64,000 nt of DNA, from assembly GCA_013166775.1 (NCBI GenBank), contig JABLTJ010000027.1:1-64000 (forward strand). Direction: 5' to 3'. Origin of the DNA: Promethearchaeati archaeon (lineage in GTDB: Archaea > Asgardarchaeota > Heimdallarchaeia > Heimdallarchaeales > Heimdallarchaeaceae). The notes below the pieces were generated by a model, which ran no database searches, was not told where the DNA came from, and was given only the letters and a program-made list of their open reading frames with translations. The position numbers and the translations under genes are program-made. This document shows positions 18,358-62,195 of the stretch, piece by piece (position 1 is the first letter of the stretch; the number at the start of each line of letters is the position of its first letter).

Positions 18358-20070
18358 TTATGTTTTGTATCTTTTACGTCTGAATCTCATCGTTAAAACT
18401 AGCATAGCAATTATTGTTAGAATACTGATGGGTATTACGAATTCTCTAATGTGTGTTATCGAATATTGGACATGCACACAATTAGATGGTGAGCTGTTGA
18501 AATGAACATTATCAGCAACAACAACATAACCATAGATTCCTACATCAGGTAAAGTGTCAATAGTTTCATTTGCACTAATTGTATATATTGGATCTAAATG
18601 ATCAACAGACCAGATAAATGATGTATCTCTATAGACATAGTATTGTCTAACACCTTTTGCTTCATTCCACTCTAGTTTTAGTGTATCTGTACTAATCTCA
18701 TCTGGAACTATAGTAGCTAATGTAGGTTCAGCAGGTGGACCTATAAATCTCTTAAAATGGATGTCAGAATCAAGACCATAGTATGATAAATTCGTATAAT
18801 CTATCCATACTATATTCACACTTCCATACTTTCCAACTGATAAAGAAGGAAATCTAGAAGTTGTAGTACTGTCTGTGGAAATAGCTTCAATTTTTGACCA
18901 AGTTTCAGTATTGGATGAGAAAAATCTATAGATAATATCTAGAAATGTATCCTCACGATCAAAAGCTGCAGAATCTTCCCATGCAACATGGATATTATCA
19001 TCCGGATCTATATCAATGGAAGGTAACCAAGAAGTGGAAACTCCAGTATCTGATATTACTTCAAGTATATTCCAACTAGCTGAATCTTTATCATAGATTC
19101 TATAGAAAATATCAGCATCTCCTACAGCTCCATCAAAAGGCATTTCGTCGTCCCAGACTATATGAACATTATCAAGAGAATCAACTGCAATATCAGGATT
19201 TAATGACATGTCGTTACTTTCATTGGATAAGACCACAGTTAGTTGCCAGATTTTTGTTGTTGCATCTAAATACTTGTAGAAAATATCGTAATCACTACCT
19301 GAACCCAAGTAGACAGTCGGATCGTACCAAATAACGTGAACGTTACCAATGGAATCAATAGCTAGTTGAGGACACAAAGAGTGATCAGTGCTTTCAGTGG
19401 AGACAACTTGAGTAGTTGACCATGATTGTTTTGTCTCGTTCCAGATTTTATAGAAAATATCAAATTCTCCACCAGCACCTAAATAATCTGTATTGTCACC
19501 CCAAACTACGTGTATATTATCCGATAAATCAACTCCAATTGAGGGATTGACTGAATTTACAGAGCTTTCAGTTGAGATGGTAGTAATACTAGACCAGCTT
19601 TGCGTAGTAGCAATCCATTGTTTATGTAGAATAACTTGATTGTTTTCATCTCACACAAAATGGACATTATCTAACGAATCAATAGCAATATCAGGAGCAA
19701 ATGATTCTGCTGTGCTTTCAGAGACAACTTCAGTAACAGTCCATGTATTTGAATCTGTTTCCCATCGTTTGTAAAAGATATCTCTATCTGTACCCGCTCC
19801 TAAATAATTTGTTGGATCCCACCAGACAATATGAAGGTTCCCTATAGAATCGGTTGTTATTTCAGAAAATTCAGAGTTTTGGGTACTCTCCTTTGATAGA
19901 ACTTCAGTATCTGTCCAAAACCAGTCAGAATCTCTGATAGATTCAAATTGTCCATTCTCTGATTTTATTTGGAGAGCATTTAGAGTTGCAAGAAGTACGA
20001 ATGAAATAAGCAAGAGAAGAAAAATAGTTCTTAGGTCTTTAATTAAACTTCCTTTTTTTATTTTTATCAC
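18358..20070 (-). pseudogene. BNR/beta-propeller-like repeat surface protein, single in-frame TGA at 19651-19653
   Basis: Repeated IAxDSxxNVHIVWxDxxxxxGxxxDxDIFYK units, signal peptide, C-terminal TM + RFRRKRYKT; frame is continuous apart from one TGA. Confidence 0.75.
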
Positions 20071-48103: not shown

Positions 48104-48925
48104 ATGGGTTCTAAGAAAAGAGATGAGGAAGTAGTTTTGATTACTGGTGCTACTGGTGGGATAGGTACTGTTACAGCTAATCTTTTACATAACAATGGAT
48201 ACAAAGTTTATGGTACTACTCGGAATCTAAATAGTGCTCCAAAAACATCATTTAAACTTCTACAGCTTGATGTAACAGAAGATACTTCAGTAAAAGGATG
48301 TATTGAGGAAATTATATCTAAGGAAGGAAAGATCGATGTTCTAATCAATAATGCAAGTTTCTCATTATGTGGTTCGGTAACTTATCTTTCAGCCAAAGAT
48401 TTTCAAGCACAATTTGAGACAAATTTCTTTGGTGTTCATAGAATGATTTCAGAAGTTCTTCCAGGGATGTTAGAAAGAGAGGAAGGGAAAATCATCAATA
48501 TTGGTACGCTAGGTGGAAGAGCTGCAATGCCTTTTCAAGCTCCATATAGTTCAACAAAAGCAGCATTAGCAATTTACACTGATACAATCAGGATGGAATT
48601 ACAAACAAAGGGAATTAAAGTTTCATTAGTTGAACCTGGAGATATCAAAACTGATTTTCAAGCTGGAAGAAAATTCGCTAAAGGGTACGAGAATGATTTA
48701 GTAGCTCAGCAAGTAGTTGATTTGTATCATGAAAATGAAAGGAAAGGAACACCTCCAAAAAGAGTAGCAAAGAAGATTCATAAGATTATAAGAAAGAACA
48801 ATCCAAAACCAAGATATCTAGTGGGATTAATGCAAACATTCCTAGTAGGATTTCTCTTTAGATTACTTCCAATTTCCGTACAAGTATGGGGATTAATGTG
48901 GTACTTTAAAATTCCCAGAAACTGA
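48104..48925 (+). CDS. Short-chain dehydrogenase/reductase
   Basis: VVLITGATGGIGTVTANLLHNNGYKVYGTTR; NNASFSLCG; APYSSTKAAL. Confidence 0.9.
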   Translation: MGSKKRDEEVVLITGATGGIGTVTANLLHNNGYKVYGTTRNLNSAPKTSFKLLQLDVTEDTSVKGCIEEIISKEGKIDVLINNASFSLCGSVTYLSAKDFQAQFETNFFGVHRMISEVLPGMLEREEGKIINIGTLGGRAAMPFQAPYSSTKAALAIYTDTIRMELQTKGIKVSLVEPGDIKTDFQAGRKFAKGYENDLVAQQVVDLYHENERKGTPPKRVAKKIHKIIRKNNPKPRYLVGLMQTFLVGFLFRLLPISVQVWGLMWYFKIPRN

Positions 48926-49044
48926 AAAGTAAAACATGAACCCTCATATTTTGCTTTTTCATCGTCTCATCTGAAATCTTTATAAAAAACCTCTTAGATT
49001 CATCAATCTAACTTCAATATGCCTAAATTGCAATGGTGGAGAAA

Positions 49045-50256
49045 ATGTCTAAATTCTTTAAAAAATGTAATCGGTATTATCGTTTTGGAGAACCAACTAT
49101 AGCCAAAAATCTTGGTATTTACCCTTATTTTCATCGTATTCATGGAGAGCAAAATCCTATTGTGCAAATGGATGATAAAGATATTATCATGCTGGGGAGT
49201 AATAATTACCTTGGTATGACTTCTCATCCCCAAGTTAAACAAGCAGCAAAAGATGCAATTGATGTATATGGGGTAGGTTCAACAGGGTCTAGATTACTCA
49301 ACGGAACCATGGATATTCACATTGAATTAGAAGAGAGATTAGCTAAATTCATGGGAACAGATGATTGTGTAGTTTTTTCAACAGGAATGCAAGCTAATCT
49401 TGGAGCTATCTCAGCGTTGCTTTCAGAAAAGGATGAATGGATCATCTCAGATCAACAAAATCATGCGTCTATAATCGATGGTATTCGTCTTGGAAGAAAT
49501 AATCCAAAAAACAAAAAAATCTACGATCATTGTAATATGGACTCATTAGCTAAATGTTTGAAAGATACACCAAAAGGTAAAGCTCTAATTGTTACTGATG
49601 GTGTTTTTTCGATGGAAGGAGATCTAGCTAAAATGAATGAAATAATGGATTTAGCTGAAGATCGTGATGCTGGTGTATACATAGATGATGCTCACGCTGT
49701 TGGAGTTATTGGTCCTCATGGGAAAGGTACAGCTGCTCATTTTGATATGGTTGATAAAGTTCATCTAACAATGGGTACTTTTTCCAAAAGTTTTGCAACA
49801 GTGGGAGGTTTTGTTGCTGCAAATGAGCAAATCTGCAATTGGCTAAGGCACAAGGCTAGATCTTTTATATTCTCAGCTAGTCCACCTCCAGCTACATGTG
49901 CTACTGTTTTAGCAATTTTAGATATCATAGAGAAAGATGATTCCTATAGGCAAAAACTTCTAGCAATAGGAGATAAAATGAGAAAAGGATTAACTGATAT
50001 AGGCTTTGATACTGGTAATTCAGTTACACCAATAATCCCACTAGTTGTTGGAGAGACTCGTCGGACAGTTAAATTTTTCAAGAAGCTGTTTGAACACAAA
50101 CCTAGAGGGATTTTTACTAACCCTGTAGTTCATCCTGCTACTCCAAAAGGAAGAGAATTAATCCGTACATCATACATAGCTACTATGACGGATGAAGTAA
50201 CCTCAGAAGCTCTGGATATTTTCGAAGTAGCTGGAAAGGACATGAAGTTGATTTAG
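49045..50256 (+). CDS. Alpha-oxoamine synthase (KBL/AONS/serine palmitoyltransferase-like) PLP enzyme
   Basis: MLGSNNYLGMTSHPQVKQAAKDAIDVYGVGSTGSRLLNGTMDIHIELEERLAKFM; DDAHAVGVIGPHGKGT; GTFSKSFATVGGFVAA (PLP Lys). Confidence 0.9.
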   Translation: MSKFFKKCNRYYRFGEPTIAKNLGIYPYFHRIHGEQNPIVQMDDKDIIMLGSNNYLGMTSHPQVKQAAKDAIDVYGVGSTGSRLLNGTMDIHIELEERLAKFMGTDDCVVFSTGMQANLGAISALLSEKDEWIISDQQNHASIIDGIRLGRNNPKNKKIYDHCNMDSLAKCLKDTPKGKALIVTDGVFSMEGDLAKMNEIMDLAEDRDAGVYIDDAHAVGVIGPHGKGTAAHFDMVDKVHLTMGTFSKSFATVGGFVAANEQICNWLRHKARSFIFSASPPPATCATVLAILDIIEKDDSYRQKLLAIGDKMRKGLTDIGFDTGNSVTPIIPLVVGETRRTVKFFKKLFEHKPRGIFTNPVVHPATPKGRELIRTSYIATMTDEVTSEALDIFEVAGKDMKLI

Positions 50257-50892: not shown

Positions 50893-51462
50893 TTAAAGCA
50901 ACTGCAGGAATTCTTTGGCAAAATTTTCAATCTGAATCCAATCCCGAAGATCAGTTATTTCTTTGGTAGAGTCGGTTTCTAATCCAGTTTGCTTCCCAAC
51001 CATTACTAGTATTTTTTTATCAAGCCAGCTCATCCTTGATGTTTTAGATAGATCCATTAAACCTCCAAAAGCATCAAAAAGATCTACTTTTTCCACTCCT
51101 AGTTTGTTTAGTGCATCCTTTGTGTATTCTACTTTCACTTTCTCATAATGTTCTGGAACTGCAGCATAACCAGAGCTAACGAAGAACCCCAGCTTTCCCT
51201 TAAATGAGTTAAGAGCATCCTTTTTCTTTGTTATAAAATTCTTTACATGTTTTGTCCATTGACCTATTTTTATACTAGTTCCAATTAAGATTCCAGCATA
51301 ATTATCGAAGGATAAATATTCATCATTTGCAGGTGGTTTTTTCAGATCTACAACTAAAACGTCAAATTCGTTTTCACCTAGAATGCTAGCTATTCGTTCA
51401 GAGATACCTTCTGTACTTCCGTAACGTGTCCCATACAAAATCAATACTTTCTTTTTATTCAT
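50893..51462 (-). CDS. Flavodoxin-domain protein
   Basis: KVLILYGTRYGSTEGISERIASILGENEFDVLVVDL...YAGILIGTSIKIGQWTKHVKNFITKK...FVSSGYA. Confidence 0.85.
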   Translation of the reverse strand: MNKKKVLILYGTRYGSTEGISERIASILGENEFDVLVVDLKKPPANDEYLSFDNYAGILIGTSIKIGQWTKHVKNFITKKKDALNSFKGKLGFFVSSGYAAVPEHYEKVKVEYTKDALNKLGVEKVDLFDAFGGLMDLSKTSRMSWLDKKILVMVGKQTGLETDSTKEITDLRDWIQIENFAKEFLQLL

Positions 51463-51508: not shown

Positions 51509-52054
51509 TTACTTATTCTTCTTAAATTTCAGACCAGGAATCCATTTAGCTACACTCTTCCTGTAATTCTCATAATCCTCTCCGAATTGAGCTAATAATA
51601 ATCTTTCTTCATAAGAGGAGATGAAATCATAGAAAATAATTATGATAATCCAAAATCCTAGGGATGCTAGAGAAAAAGTTGCAAGAAATAATCCCAAGAA
51701 TAGTAAGATAAATCCTAAATACATTGGATGTCGTACAACTGCAAATACTCCTTTTTTTATTACTCCATGTTCATCTCTTTCTTCACCAAAAACCATTCCG
51801 TGAGCTTTGAATGCTAAAAAACCAGCAAAAATCAAAGTAAAGCTTGAAAGAATTCCTCTAACATAATTAGGAACATATTGAATAAGAAAAGTAGAGAATT
51901 TAAAAACAAAGGAATCCAAAATCCAGAGGACTAGAAAACTGAAAAGCAAAATCAGTTGTCCAATATCTGAAAGTTTGTGTTCTCCAGCTAAATCAATTCT
52001 ATGTTCATATTCTTTCCTTTTGTGCCCTTTGATTTCTTCTTCTCTTTTATTCAT
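51509..52054 (-). CDS. Isoprenylcysteine carboxyl methyltransferase/PEMT-like membrane protein
   Basis: GVIKKGVFAVVRHPMYLGFILLFLG...EERLLLAQFGEDYENYRKSVAKWIPG. Confidence 0.85.
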   Translation of the reverse strand: MNKREEEIKGHKRKEYEHRIDLAGEHKLSDIGQLILLFSFLVLWILDSFVFKFSTFLIQYVPNYVRGILSSFTLIFAGFLAFKAHGMVFGEERDEHGVIKKGVFAVVRHPMYLGFILLFLGLFLATFSLASLGFWIIIIIFYDFISSYEERLLLAQFGEDYENYRKSVAKWIPGLKFKKNK

Positions 52055-59213: not shown

Positions 59214-62195
59214 ATGATTCCACTTATTGTTCTCTTCAGTTTTTTTTCTTATTTATATGGTTCTATTCCTTTTGCTCTTTTCTTTACCTATGTTTTAACT
59301 AAAAAGAATTTACTTCATGAAGGAACAGGCAATGTGGGTGTTATTAATACCTTTAGAACCGGAGGAACTTTAGCAGGTTTATTAACTGTAATAGGAGAAA
59401 TTTCTAAAGCATTTGTACCATTAGTAATATCATTCTTTCTTTTCGAGAAACAATTGGGTGCATCATTCTTTAATTTCGAGGATGAGCGCTGGATAAGCTT
59501 AATGTACTTATTTTTGACTCTTCTTGGAATAAACTTTTCAATTTTTCTAAGATTTAGAGGAGGGCATGGCTCTACAATGACTTTTTTCTCTACTTTAATC
59601 TTGTCCCCCTTTTCAGCTTTAACTCTACTAGGTATAAACACTATCTTACACTTTTTATCAAGATATGATTTTAGAATAAAGAGATTATGGATTTTATTTA
59701 TCCCTGCGATAATCTATGCATTTGAAAGAAGTAGCATATATGCCTCATTTGGTGCTGCTACTGCGCTATTATTCTTAATTCAAAGTGGAGAAAGTAGAGA
59801 TGATTATGTTAGACACTTCGAAGAATATGAAATGAGTAAGAGAAAAAAACTATCAATAAGATTTCACAAATTATCTTTTTATAAACGTGTACCTTTTATT
59901 GGGAATAAGGCAAATAATCTTGAATTTTTGATATCACAGAAAGTGAAAGTTCCTACAACTTATGCTTTGGATTGGTATATGTGTTCCAAACTCGTCGATT
60001 CAGATAGTGAGATAAAGGAGAAAATTATAATATCAATACAAAAAAGAATTTCACCAACAAAATCCTATGCAATACGTTCTTCTGCTTCAATAGAGGATGA
60101 TCCTGAATTCTCATTTGCTGGACAATTCAAAACTATACTAAATGTTCAAGGAATTGATAAAATCATAAATGCAATTGAAGAAGTCTATAATTCAAAGAAA
60201 AGTAAAAACGTGCAGAAATATATCACCAAATCTAATTTGAAATATGAAAATCTCAGAATGGCTGTTATTGTCCAAGAAATGGTTAATCAAATTTTTTCTG
60301 GCGTAAGTTTCGGAAAAAATCCAATTACGGGATTAGATGAAGTCGTAATTGAAGCAGTTGAAGGGAGCGGACAATTATTATTACAGGATGGGATTACACC
60401 CTTTCACTGTGTCTATAAATGGGGGGAGATACTTACAGAATCTAAAGAAAATCCAATCCCTGTTGAAATTATTCAAATAATTGCTGAAGAGACATTGAGA
60501 ATTCAGAAAAAATATAAAAAACCTGTAGATCTCGAATGGGTTTATGATGGAAAAGAAATAAACTGGGTGCAGGTAAGACCTATATCAACATTTATAGGAT
60601 TGAATATTTATTCAAATAAGTTTTCTAAAGAATTTTTACCAGGTGTTATCAAGCCATTAATCTTTTCCATAAATATTCTTCTCATTAATTCTACTTGGAT
60701 TGATATATTAACTGAATTAATTGGAAAAAATGATTTGGATCCGTATCTGCTAGCTAAATTATTTTATTACCGAGCATATTTTAATATAGGAAAGTTTGGT
60801 CAAATATTCGAAACAGTAGGTTTTCCTAGAGAGTTGTTGGAAATTCTTGTTCTTTCCGAAGGTGAAAATAAGAAGCCTAAGTTCAAAATTACTTTCAAAA
60901 CGCTTAGACATTTACCTAGAGTTGTAAAATTTTTGATTAATAAGTTATTTTTCTTTGAAAAGAGAATTAATAGGGACTTAATCTTGTTAATGAATGAATT
61001 CGAAAAATTTGAAAATGAAAGACTTGATAATGAAACACCAAGTAAGCTTCTAATAATTATTAAGGAATTATTTGAACTAAATAGAAAAATTGCATACTTT
61101 AGTATTATTATTCCTCTTCTTAATTTCTTCTTTAATAATAGACTAACAAGAAAATTAAAGAAATATAAGCTTACTATGGAAAGTTTAAACTATCTACTTA
61201 ATTCTGAGCAAAATCTATCTGATTTCAATCCACATCTTCATTTAGAAGAACTTCATACTGAATTTAAGAACTTACCAGACAATATAAAAACTGAAATAAG
61301 AAAAGGGTCATTTGAGCAATTTCTAGAAATACCAGAAATTACGGTTTTTAAAAAGAATGTTCTGAATTTTATTGATAGATTTGGTCATCTAAGTGATAGT
61401 GGAAATGATTTTTCACTCATACACTGGAGAGAGAAACCAAAACTAATTCTTGAAATGATAATTAATTACACACTCCCAAAGAGCAAGATTGCAGATTCAG
61501 AAATTTTACCTATAAGAAAAATAAAAGGAAAAACCTTAGTGAAAAAAATTAAACGGTATAGATATTATAAAGAACAGATTAGTTTTGAATATACATATAG
61601 TTACAGTCTTTTTAGATCATATTTCTCTGCCTTAGCAAAACAATTTGTTCAAAGAGGAATATTTCAAGAAGAAAATGACATCTACTATCTAACGTTTGAG
61701 GAAATAATTGAAATAATTGAAAAGGATTTATGGAGAGAAAGTAGGCAAGAACAAGTAGATAGAATTAAGAAAGAAATAGAGAAATATAGCGATATTAAAG
61801 CACCAGCAACTATTTATGGAGATAATCCCCCTCCAATTACTTTAGATACGAAAATATATCATAAATACATAGGAACACCTTCTTCTCCTGGTTACTATTT
61901 AGGTCAAATTACTAAAGTAAAAAGCATTGATGAGTTTAACAAAATTCAAGATGGAGATGTTTTAGTTATTCCCTATTCTGATGTTTCTTGGACTCCTATC
62001 TTCTCGAAAGCTGGAGCTGTTATATCAGAAGCAGGAGGTATGCTTTCTCACTGTTCTATTATAGCTAGAGAATATCAAATCCCAGCTGTGGTTTCAGTTG
62101 ATGGAATTTTTCAGCTAAACGATGGTGATACTGTATCTGTTGATGGTTATAAAGGAGAAGTGAGTTTAGTAAAGAGGATTTCTAAAGACCACTGA
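59214..62195 (+). CDS. Fusion: PlsY-like glycerol-3-phosphate acyltransferase membrane domain + PEP-synthase/rifampin-phosphotransferase-like dikinase
   Basis: N-term GSIPFALFFTYVLTKKNLLHEGTGNVGVINTFRTGGTLAGL...FLRFRGGHGSTMTFF (PlsY-like); YAIRSSASIEDDPEFSFAGQFKTILNVQ + INWVQVRPI (PPDK N-domain); AGAVISEAGGMLSHCSIIAREYQIPAVVSVDG (PEP-utilizing His domain). Confidence 0.85.
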   Translation: MIPLIVLFSFFSYLYGSIPFALFFTYVLTKKNLLHEGTGNVGVINTFRTGGTLAGLLTVIGEISKAFVPLVISFFLFEKQLGASFFNFEDERWISLMYLFLTLLGINFSIFLRFRGGHGSTMTFFSTLILSPFSALTLLGINTILHFLSRYDFRIKRLWILFIPAIIYAFERSSIYASFGAATALLFLIQSGESRDDYVRHFEEYEMSKRKKLSIRFHKLSFYKRVPFIGNKANNLEFLISQKVKVPTTYALDWYMCSKLVDSDSEIKEKIIISIQKRISPTKSYAIRSSASIEDDPEFSFAGQFKTILNVQGIDKIINAIEEVYNSKKSKNVQKYITKSNLKYENLRMAVIVQEMVNQIFSGVSFGKNPITGLDEVVIEAVEGSGQLLLQDGITPFHCVYKWGEILTESKENPIPVEIIQIIAEETLRIQKKYKKPVDLEWVYDGKEINWVQVRPISTFIGLNIYSNKFSKEFLPGVIKPLIFSINILLINSTWIDILTELIGKNDLDPYLLAKLFYYRAYFNIGKFGQIFETVGFPRELLEILVLSEGENKKPKFKITFKTLRHLPRVVKFLINKLFFFEKRINRDLILLMNEFEKFENERLDNETPSKLLIIIKELFELNRKIAYFSIIIPLLNFFFNNRLTRKLKKYKLTMESLNYLLNSEQNLSDFNPHLHLEELHTEFKNLPDNIKTEIRKGSFEQFLEIPEITVFKKNVLNFIDRFGHLSDSGNDFSLIHWREKPKLILEMIINYTLPKSKIADSEILPIRKIKGKTLVKKIKRYRYYKEQISFEYTYSYSLFRSYFSALAKQFVQRGIFQEENDIYYLTFEEIIEIIEKDLWRESRQEQVDRIKKEIEKYSDIKAPATIYGDNPPPITLDTKIYHKYIGTPSSPGYYLGQITKVKSIDEFNKIQDGDVLVIPYSDVSWTPIFSKAGAVISEAGGMLSHCSIIAREYQIPAVVSVDGIFQLNDGDTVSVDGYKGEVSLVKRISKDH

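Follow-up and report, generated by a model that had tools for sequence, protein, structure and literature searches.

The window, the whole 64,000-nt stretch analyzed here, comes from an uncultured Heimdallarchaeia metagenome-assembled genome (MAG; 3.85 Mb, 88.7% complete), a member of the Asgard archaea, the archaeal group nearest to eukaryotes. On its forward strand, positions 59214-62195 form one open reading frame of 993 codons with an ATG start. The corresponding stop-to-stop frame has only 1000 codons, seven more than the ORF, so the start is tightly bounded. The gene joins a PlsY-like membrane domain to a dikinase resembling rifampin phosphotransferase (RPH) and PEP synthase, and its features are as follows.

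59214..62195, forward strand: whole fusion gene, PlsY-like membrane domain plus RPH/PEP-synthase-like dikinase; 993 aa, likewise uninterrupted in G012 and G086
59214..59813, forward strand: PlsY-like membrane domain (residues 1-200), type A subfamily without the glycerol-3-phosphate (G3P) pocket; from PF02660, AlphaFold/Foldseek and a residue table
59322..59357, forward strand: PlsY motif 1 equivalent, GTGNVGVINTFR; Ser35 replaced by Thr38, Thr41 by Ile, Arg45 kept as Arg48, in the alignment to 5xj5_A
59526..59570, forward strand: PlsY phosphate-hole loop equivalent, GINFSIFLRFRGGHG; His92 replaced by Ile106, Lys104 by His118, glycines kept, in the alignment to 5xj5_A
59859..60611, forward strand: ATP-grasp (PPDK_N) domain; Lys232, Arg288 and Thr307 at the positions of RPH Lys22, Arg117 and Thr136
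60612..61850, forward strand: helical acceptor-binding domain, RPH-like; Lys786-Glu787 (61569-61574) at the position of RPH Arg666-Glu667
61851..62192, forward strand: swivelling phospho-histidine domain (PF00391); His946 (62049-62051) at the position of RPH His825

The order along the protein is thus a PlsY-fold membrane domain (1-200), an ATP-grasp domain, an RPH-type acceptor domain and the phospho-histidine swivel bearing His946. A preliminary description of this DNA had proposed one uninterrupted frame, a PlsY-like, a PPDK_N and a swivelling histidine domain, and the lack of a TIM barrel, as in RPH; each of these points is borne out. Three Pfam matches exceed their gathering cut-offs: G3P_acyltransf (residues 12-188, E 5.1e-25), PPDK_N (centered on residues 267-396, E 2.7e-37) and PEP-utilizers (residues 911-981, E 4.3e-21). 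Pfam finds no PEP/pyruvate TIM barrel in the ORF, which stops after the swivel, and the best relative in the PDB is a rifampin phosphotransferase. A role as a PEP synthase in gluconeogenesis is ruled out by the missing barrel. The single frame is shared by G012 (93% identity) and by G086, a member of another family (38-39%); recurring in three MAGs of two families, the fusion is neither a chance arrangement nor an assembly slip. Purifying selection acts on both halves: between the window genome (G000) and G012, dN/dS is about 0.10 for the membrane part, about 0.25 for the ATP-grasp domain and 0.26 over most of the acceptor domain. The full-length AlphaFold model is moderate (pLDDT 66, pTM 0.44), and we therefore make no claim about how the domains pack.

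The kinase half looks complete. In an ungapped phmmer alignment to Listeria RPH (5fbs_A), Arg288, Thr307, Lys786-Glu787 and His946 fall on Arg117, Thr136, Arg666-Glu667 and His825, residues that mutant data show to be needed for the RPH half-reactions (PMC4844700); Lys232 (GNKA) is placed on RPH Lys22 (GGKG) by motif, within a sub-threshold segment. The RPH catalytic residues checked are kept, with lysine in the place of Arg666. Across the dikinase family this pair is Arg-Glu in most other members, Arg-Gln in G147 and Lys-Glu in the window protein. A Foldseek search with the full-length model ranks RPH first (E 6.6e-30), and the domain order (ATP-grasp, acceptor domain and C-terminal histidine swivel) is common to RPH (PDB 5HV1, 5FBS) and the PRK06241-type PEP synthases. 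Structure-alignment identity to RPH is about 17-18%, however, the score misses the cut-off of the rifampin phosphotransferase equivalog NF041857 (190 versus 999 bits), and, unlike RPH, the dikinase family of the fusion has a PlsY-like membrane protein as a fusion partner or in the same gene cluster. The phosphoryl-relay mechanism and hydrophobic acceptors are shared with the two-component dikinases HpeHI, CreHI and phenylphosphate synthase PpsAB, but these are split into an ATP-grasp protein and an acceptor-plus-swivel protein, act on aromatic alcohols, and lack a membrane domain (PMC12167813). No Pfam match to the DAK2 domain of FakA was found in the fusion protein.

The membrane half was described beforehand as PlsY-like, an assignment on which profile and structure searches agree. 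It scores 88.9 bits against PF02660 (curated cut-off 24.1), and the AlphaFold model of the domain alone, for which the underlying alignment included PlsY relatives, has a mean pLDDT of 87. The only significant PDB matches to this model are the PlsY structures 5xj5-5xj8 (TM 0.70/0.76 for 5xj6/5xj5; E 1.7e-6 for 5xj6), the next non-PlsY entry having an E of 0.7. On the strength of this model, we assign the fused domain the seven-helix fold of PlsY. It falls short of the TIGR00023 PlsY equivalog cut-off (63.5 versus 137.2 bits). The Aquifex PlsY binds G3P through Ser35, Arg45, Lys104, Asn180, Ser142 and His177, and acyl-phosphate through the backbone of a glycine-rich loop together with His92 and Thr41; alanine substitution of clamp residues in this enzyme costs more than 92% of activity, and substitutions of Thr41 or His92 are each costly (PMC5700162). 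In the fused domain, the clamp residues Ser35, Arg45, Lys104 and Asn180 read Thr, Arg, His and Ser, the 2-OH ligands Ser142 and His177 read Phe and Ser, and the acyl-phosphate ligands Thr41 and His92 are both Ile. What is kept is the GG.G loop, the Asn42 and Lys65 positions and the Arg45 equivalent. It had been noted previously that the GH and GGKG positions of PlsY look altered. The residue table built on the alignment to 5xj5_A confirms this, with the correction that the GH of motif 2 aligns with GI (His92 to Ile106); the list was also incomplete, the positions of His177, Asn180 and Ser142 being lost as well.

Compared with PlsY (YgiH; acyl-phosphate:glycerol-3-phosphate acyltransferase, PF02660, PDB 5XJ5-5XJ9), the fused domain thus has the fold, the family profile, the frame of motif 1 and the glycine loop in common, but lacks the side chains of His92, Lys104, Ser142, His177, Asn180 and Thr41, and is joined to a kinase. 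Because the G3P pocket is lost despite the PlsY fold, the domain is not an ordinary PlsY; with these residues gone, a canonical G3P acyltransferase is unlikely, and the domain has probably changed its acceptor or serves only to bind. Canonical Asgard PlsY proteins have essentially all of the G3P ligands. A second PlsY-like group associated with the dikinases (type B, below) keeps His92 and the GG.G loop, has Arg at the Lys104 position, and lacks His177 and Asn180.

We surveyed 228 genomes of the Asgard phylum, all of them MAGs, and found full fusions in three: the window genome, G012 of the same genus, and the more distant G086. Within the genus of the window organism, two of the 21 genomes examined carry the fusion. 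A scan of genome contigs returned a near-identical MAG (locus L006) as the sole match, and a tblastn search of plasmids (305 records) gave no match covering 80% of the query. An unfused dikinase of the same family, at about 40% identity, occurs in nine further Asgard genomes, and the family is monophyletic (100/100) against the Asgard RPH-like paralogs, which form a separate clade. A type B PlsY-like gene adjoins the unfused dikinase in G047, G085, G147, G213 and G216; in G200 it lies in the dikinase cluster, beyond ABC genes, and in G204 it sits beside ABC genes on a contig separate from the dikinase. In G227, an unfused type A PlsY gene overlaps the start of the dikinase gene. In the tree, the PlsY-like domain of G227 is nested among those of the fusions, the whole group (type A) being a clade with support 100/99; the fusion was thus either made once and then split in G227, or made twice.

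The partner of the dikinase is always a PlsY-family domain; in neither of the divergent clades, A or B, does another anchor take its place. Among genomes that belong neither to the FakB-bearing lineages nor to the Lokiarchaeal family f19, all eight with PlsY also have the dikinase, and G197, in which the contig ends, is the only one with the dikinase but no PlsY (Fisher P = 1.6e-11, without correction for kinship). A LolC/MacB-like ABC permease, usually with an ATPase, is found at most unfused-dikinase loci and in G086. No ABC permease adjoins the fusion in the window genome, where the best homolog lies on another contig. The neighbors of the G086 fusion are of polyprenyl-phosphate type (a DPPR-synthase-type UbiA, GT87, GtrA and two CrtI-like oxidoreductases), and genes for acyl-CoA synthetases occur close to the clusters of G086 and G147.

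Several smaller observations concern these neighborhoods. Within about 8 kb of the fusion, a flavodoxin-like gene and an isoprenylcysteine-methyltransferase-like gene stand side by side in both the window genome and the distant G086 (34% and 45% identity):

50893-51462 and 51509-52054 of the window: flavodoxin-like / isoprenylcysteine-methyltransferase-like pair
L067:18061-18645 and 18781-19353: the corresponding pair

G047 has a second type B PlsY-like paralog (L073:16898-17704, reverse strand) on the opposite strand, about 1 kb from its dikinase-PlsY cluster. On a plasmid of Haladaptatus salinisoli (NZ_CP085328.1, 480061-483248; L114), an RPH-like gene annotated as phosphoenolpyruvate synthase overlaps the beginning of the gene for an ABC ATPase, an arrangement that recalls the Asgard dikinase-ABC pairing.

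PlsX is absent from the phylum: PF02504 was found in none of the 228 Asgard genomes, while the same search was positive in eight control bacteria. PF02660 is present in 88 of the genomes, and the PlsY in these is accompanied by DegV/FakB genes (48 genomes, often with ten or more copies each), by the arrangement of Loki family f19 (32) or by the dikinase (8). FakA and FakB together make acyl-phosphate. In G043 and G055, the genes for FakA, DegV and PlsY lie side by side, and in G053 and G054 PlsY is fused to FakA (PF02660, Dak2 and FakA-like_M) and followed by a DegV/FakB-like gene. The fused and f19 reading frames are:

L083:352-2106 (G053) and L088:295-2100 (G054), both reverse strand: PlsY-FakA fusion ORFs, 585 and 602 aa
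L081:1447-2667, L100, L101, L102, L103, L104, L105, L106: PlsY ORFs of Loki family f19

In the FakA-FakB systems with PlsY, the kinase feeds acyl-phosphate to PlsY, and the joined FakA-PlsY of G053 and G054 is the closest working analog of our fusion and a direct precedent for the earlier idea of a kinase making the PlsY donor in cis; FakA differs in being a DAK2-type kinase, unrelated to the PEP-synthase-type dikinases, and in using a separate lipid carrier, FakB. We found no paper on an archaeal PlsY-FakA fusion in the open-licence literature. The f19 ORFs, of about 400 aa and up to three in tandem, carry a C-terminal membrane domain with the motif GD...K.FGLAFG.HK...KT.EGTLAY. CTP_transf_1 weakly matches this domain in 3 of 12 members (best E 0.0024), a PDB profile search with it gave no match, and we take the motif to resemble CTP-dependent dolichol/phytol kinases. 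In the Asgard archaea, PlsY-family domains are thus coupled with three unrelated kinases, at least two of them by fusion and the remaining one probably so too. PlsY paralogs are expanded in family f7 (G055-G063; up to 13 in G059) and in the genus of the window organism, and DegV/FakB genes are expanded in Heimdallarchaeia, with 10 or more per genome in the same two groups.

How might the fusion work? From its sequence, the cytoplasmic dikinase part is strongly implied to be a complete RPH-type machine that would cleave ATP to AMP and Pi, with a phosphate carried on His946 and from there handed to an acceptor bound in the middle domain. This acceptor would be soluble in lipid, a fatty acid or an isoprenoid carboxylic acid being the likeliest candidate, and its phosphorylation would yield an acyl-phosphate that could pass in cis to the fused PlsY-fold domain, where the kept glycine loop may hold the phosphate while the chain is transferred to an acceptor other than G3P. 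The product may then go to the LolC/MacB-type ABC transporter whose genes lie beside the dikinase in related genomes. Since FakAB makes acyl-phosphate, the idea that the dikinase supplies this compound too needs the fewest assumptions, and the acyl-CoA synthetases near the G086 and G147 clusters also speak for the two-part reading. Four steps here are inference: a lipid acceptor, its nature as a carboxylic acid, acyl transfer by the PlsY-like domain and handling of the product by the transporter. A lipid alcohol such as polyprenol would also be compatible with the dikinase. Our leading but tentative reading, to which we give somewhat less than an even chance, is a two-part membrane enzyme: the dikinase supplies a phosphorylated lipid, probably an acyl-phosphate, to a membrane domain that passes the chain to an acceptor other than G3P. 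More speculatively, the protein may belong to a new class of lipid-activating enzymes, in which a phospho-histidine dikinase forms acyl-phosphate (or its isoprenoid counterpart) for use in cis by a PlsY-fold transferase acting on something other than G3P. It would then be one of three convergent kinase couplings that serve PlsY-family chemistry in the PlsX-less Asgard archaea, possibly yielding novel ester or amide lipids. The acyl-phosphate reading is weakened by the loss of Thr41 and His92 in type A and by the polyprenyl-phosphate-type neighbors in G086, which suit a lipid-alcohol substrate equally well; the FakB genes and canonical PlsY of the window organism also offer it another possible route. 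Nor did we find a characterized dikinase of this family with a carboxylic acid as its substrate.

In the well-studied relatives the phosphate goes to hydroxyls, those of rifampin and phenols (PMC4844700, PMC12167813), as expected of the main rival, a kinase of polyprenol, dolichol-like or other hydrophobic alcohols in which the PlsY-fold domain would only bind and present the lipid, without acyl transfer. Together, the dolichol-kinase-like signature in the Loki C-terminal domain and the G086 neighborhood keep such a substrate possible, and type A lacks the acyl-phosphate and G3P ligands of PlsY. However, the polyprenyl-type neighbors occur in one genome only, type B partners retain His92 and the glycine loop, and sister lineages couple PlsY to the acyl-phosphate makers FakA and FakB, so that we consider a lipid-alcohol kinase possible but rather doubtful. 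The loss of most catalytic PlsY side chains in type A would also fit a membrane anchor that has degenerated and takes no part in handling the substrate, tethering a dikinase for a soluble or head-group substrate. We regard this as improbable: dN/dS is lower in the PlsY-like half than in the ATP-grasp domain, the GG.G loop and the Asn42 and Lys65 positions are kept, and the partner is of the PlsY family throughout clades A and B.

The preliminary description had further suggested that the two halves act together as a one-polypeptide replacement of PlsX/PlsY chemistry. Their coupling stands, as the unfused partners adjoin elsewhere and all eight PlsY genomes outside the FakB and Loki lineages carry the dikinase, but plain replacement on G3P is not supported. 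An enzyme producing lysophosphatidic acid from G3P or G1P with acyl-phosphate of its own making would suit the absence of PlsX, the PlsY fold and the retained Arg45 equivalent; it is very unlikely given that the Lys104, Ser142, His177 and Asn180 positions are all changed, that the alanine mutants of the Aquifex clamp are so impaired (PMC5700162), and that the window genome also encodes a canonical PlsY with every clamp residue, together with many FakB genes. The fusion is thus not the only possible route in the window organism and, with no ABC genes adjacent to it there, likely provides an extra, specialized activity. An annotation or assembly artefact, or one frame giving two products, deserves hardly any weight and is already largely refuted by a single frame with a conserved joint under purifying selection in three MAGs of two families, even though every genome is a MAG and G227 has the two domains as separate, overlapping genes.

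PlsY homologs without PlsX have been reported in archaea, and their role in membrane synthesis was doubted (PMC6431249); PlsY in Asgard archaea was noted earlier without the couplings described here (PMC6431249, PMC6737245, PMC13400652). Both parent families, PlsY and the RPH-type dikinases, are known, and we found no paper in the open-licence literature that links PlsY with a dikinase or describes this architecture. For the origin of eukaryotic membranes, an unsettled point is the capacity of Asgard archaea for bacterial-type or mixed lipids; the constant association of their PlsY-family proteins with a phosphorylating partner may explain how bacterial-type lipid chemistry is fed there without PlsX. 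Single expressible polypeptides are now available with which to ask which lipid phosphate is made and what it joins.

About 9 kb upstream of the fusion, the window contains two adjacent genes that resemble those of sphingoid-base synthesis:

48104-48925, forward strand: SDR; best NCBIfam match 3-ketodihydrosphingosine reductase, E 2.4e-67
49033-50256, forward strand: alpha-oxoamine synthase; best NCBIfam match serine palmitoyltransferase (SPT), E 1.5e-132

Both matches are below the equivalog cut-offs. High-scoring SPT-like genes are found in about 27 Asgard genomes, including G000, G012, G085 and G086 and not most other dikinase genomes. Because the distribution of these high-scoring genes does not follow that of the dikinase, a sphingolipid link to the fusion was rejected. 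In its own right, the pair makes sphingoid-base synthesis in a Heimdall archaeon possible.
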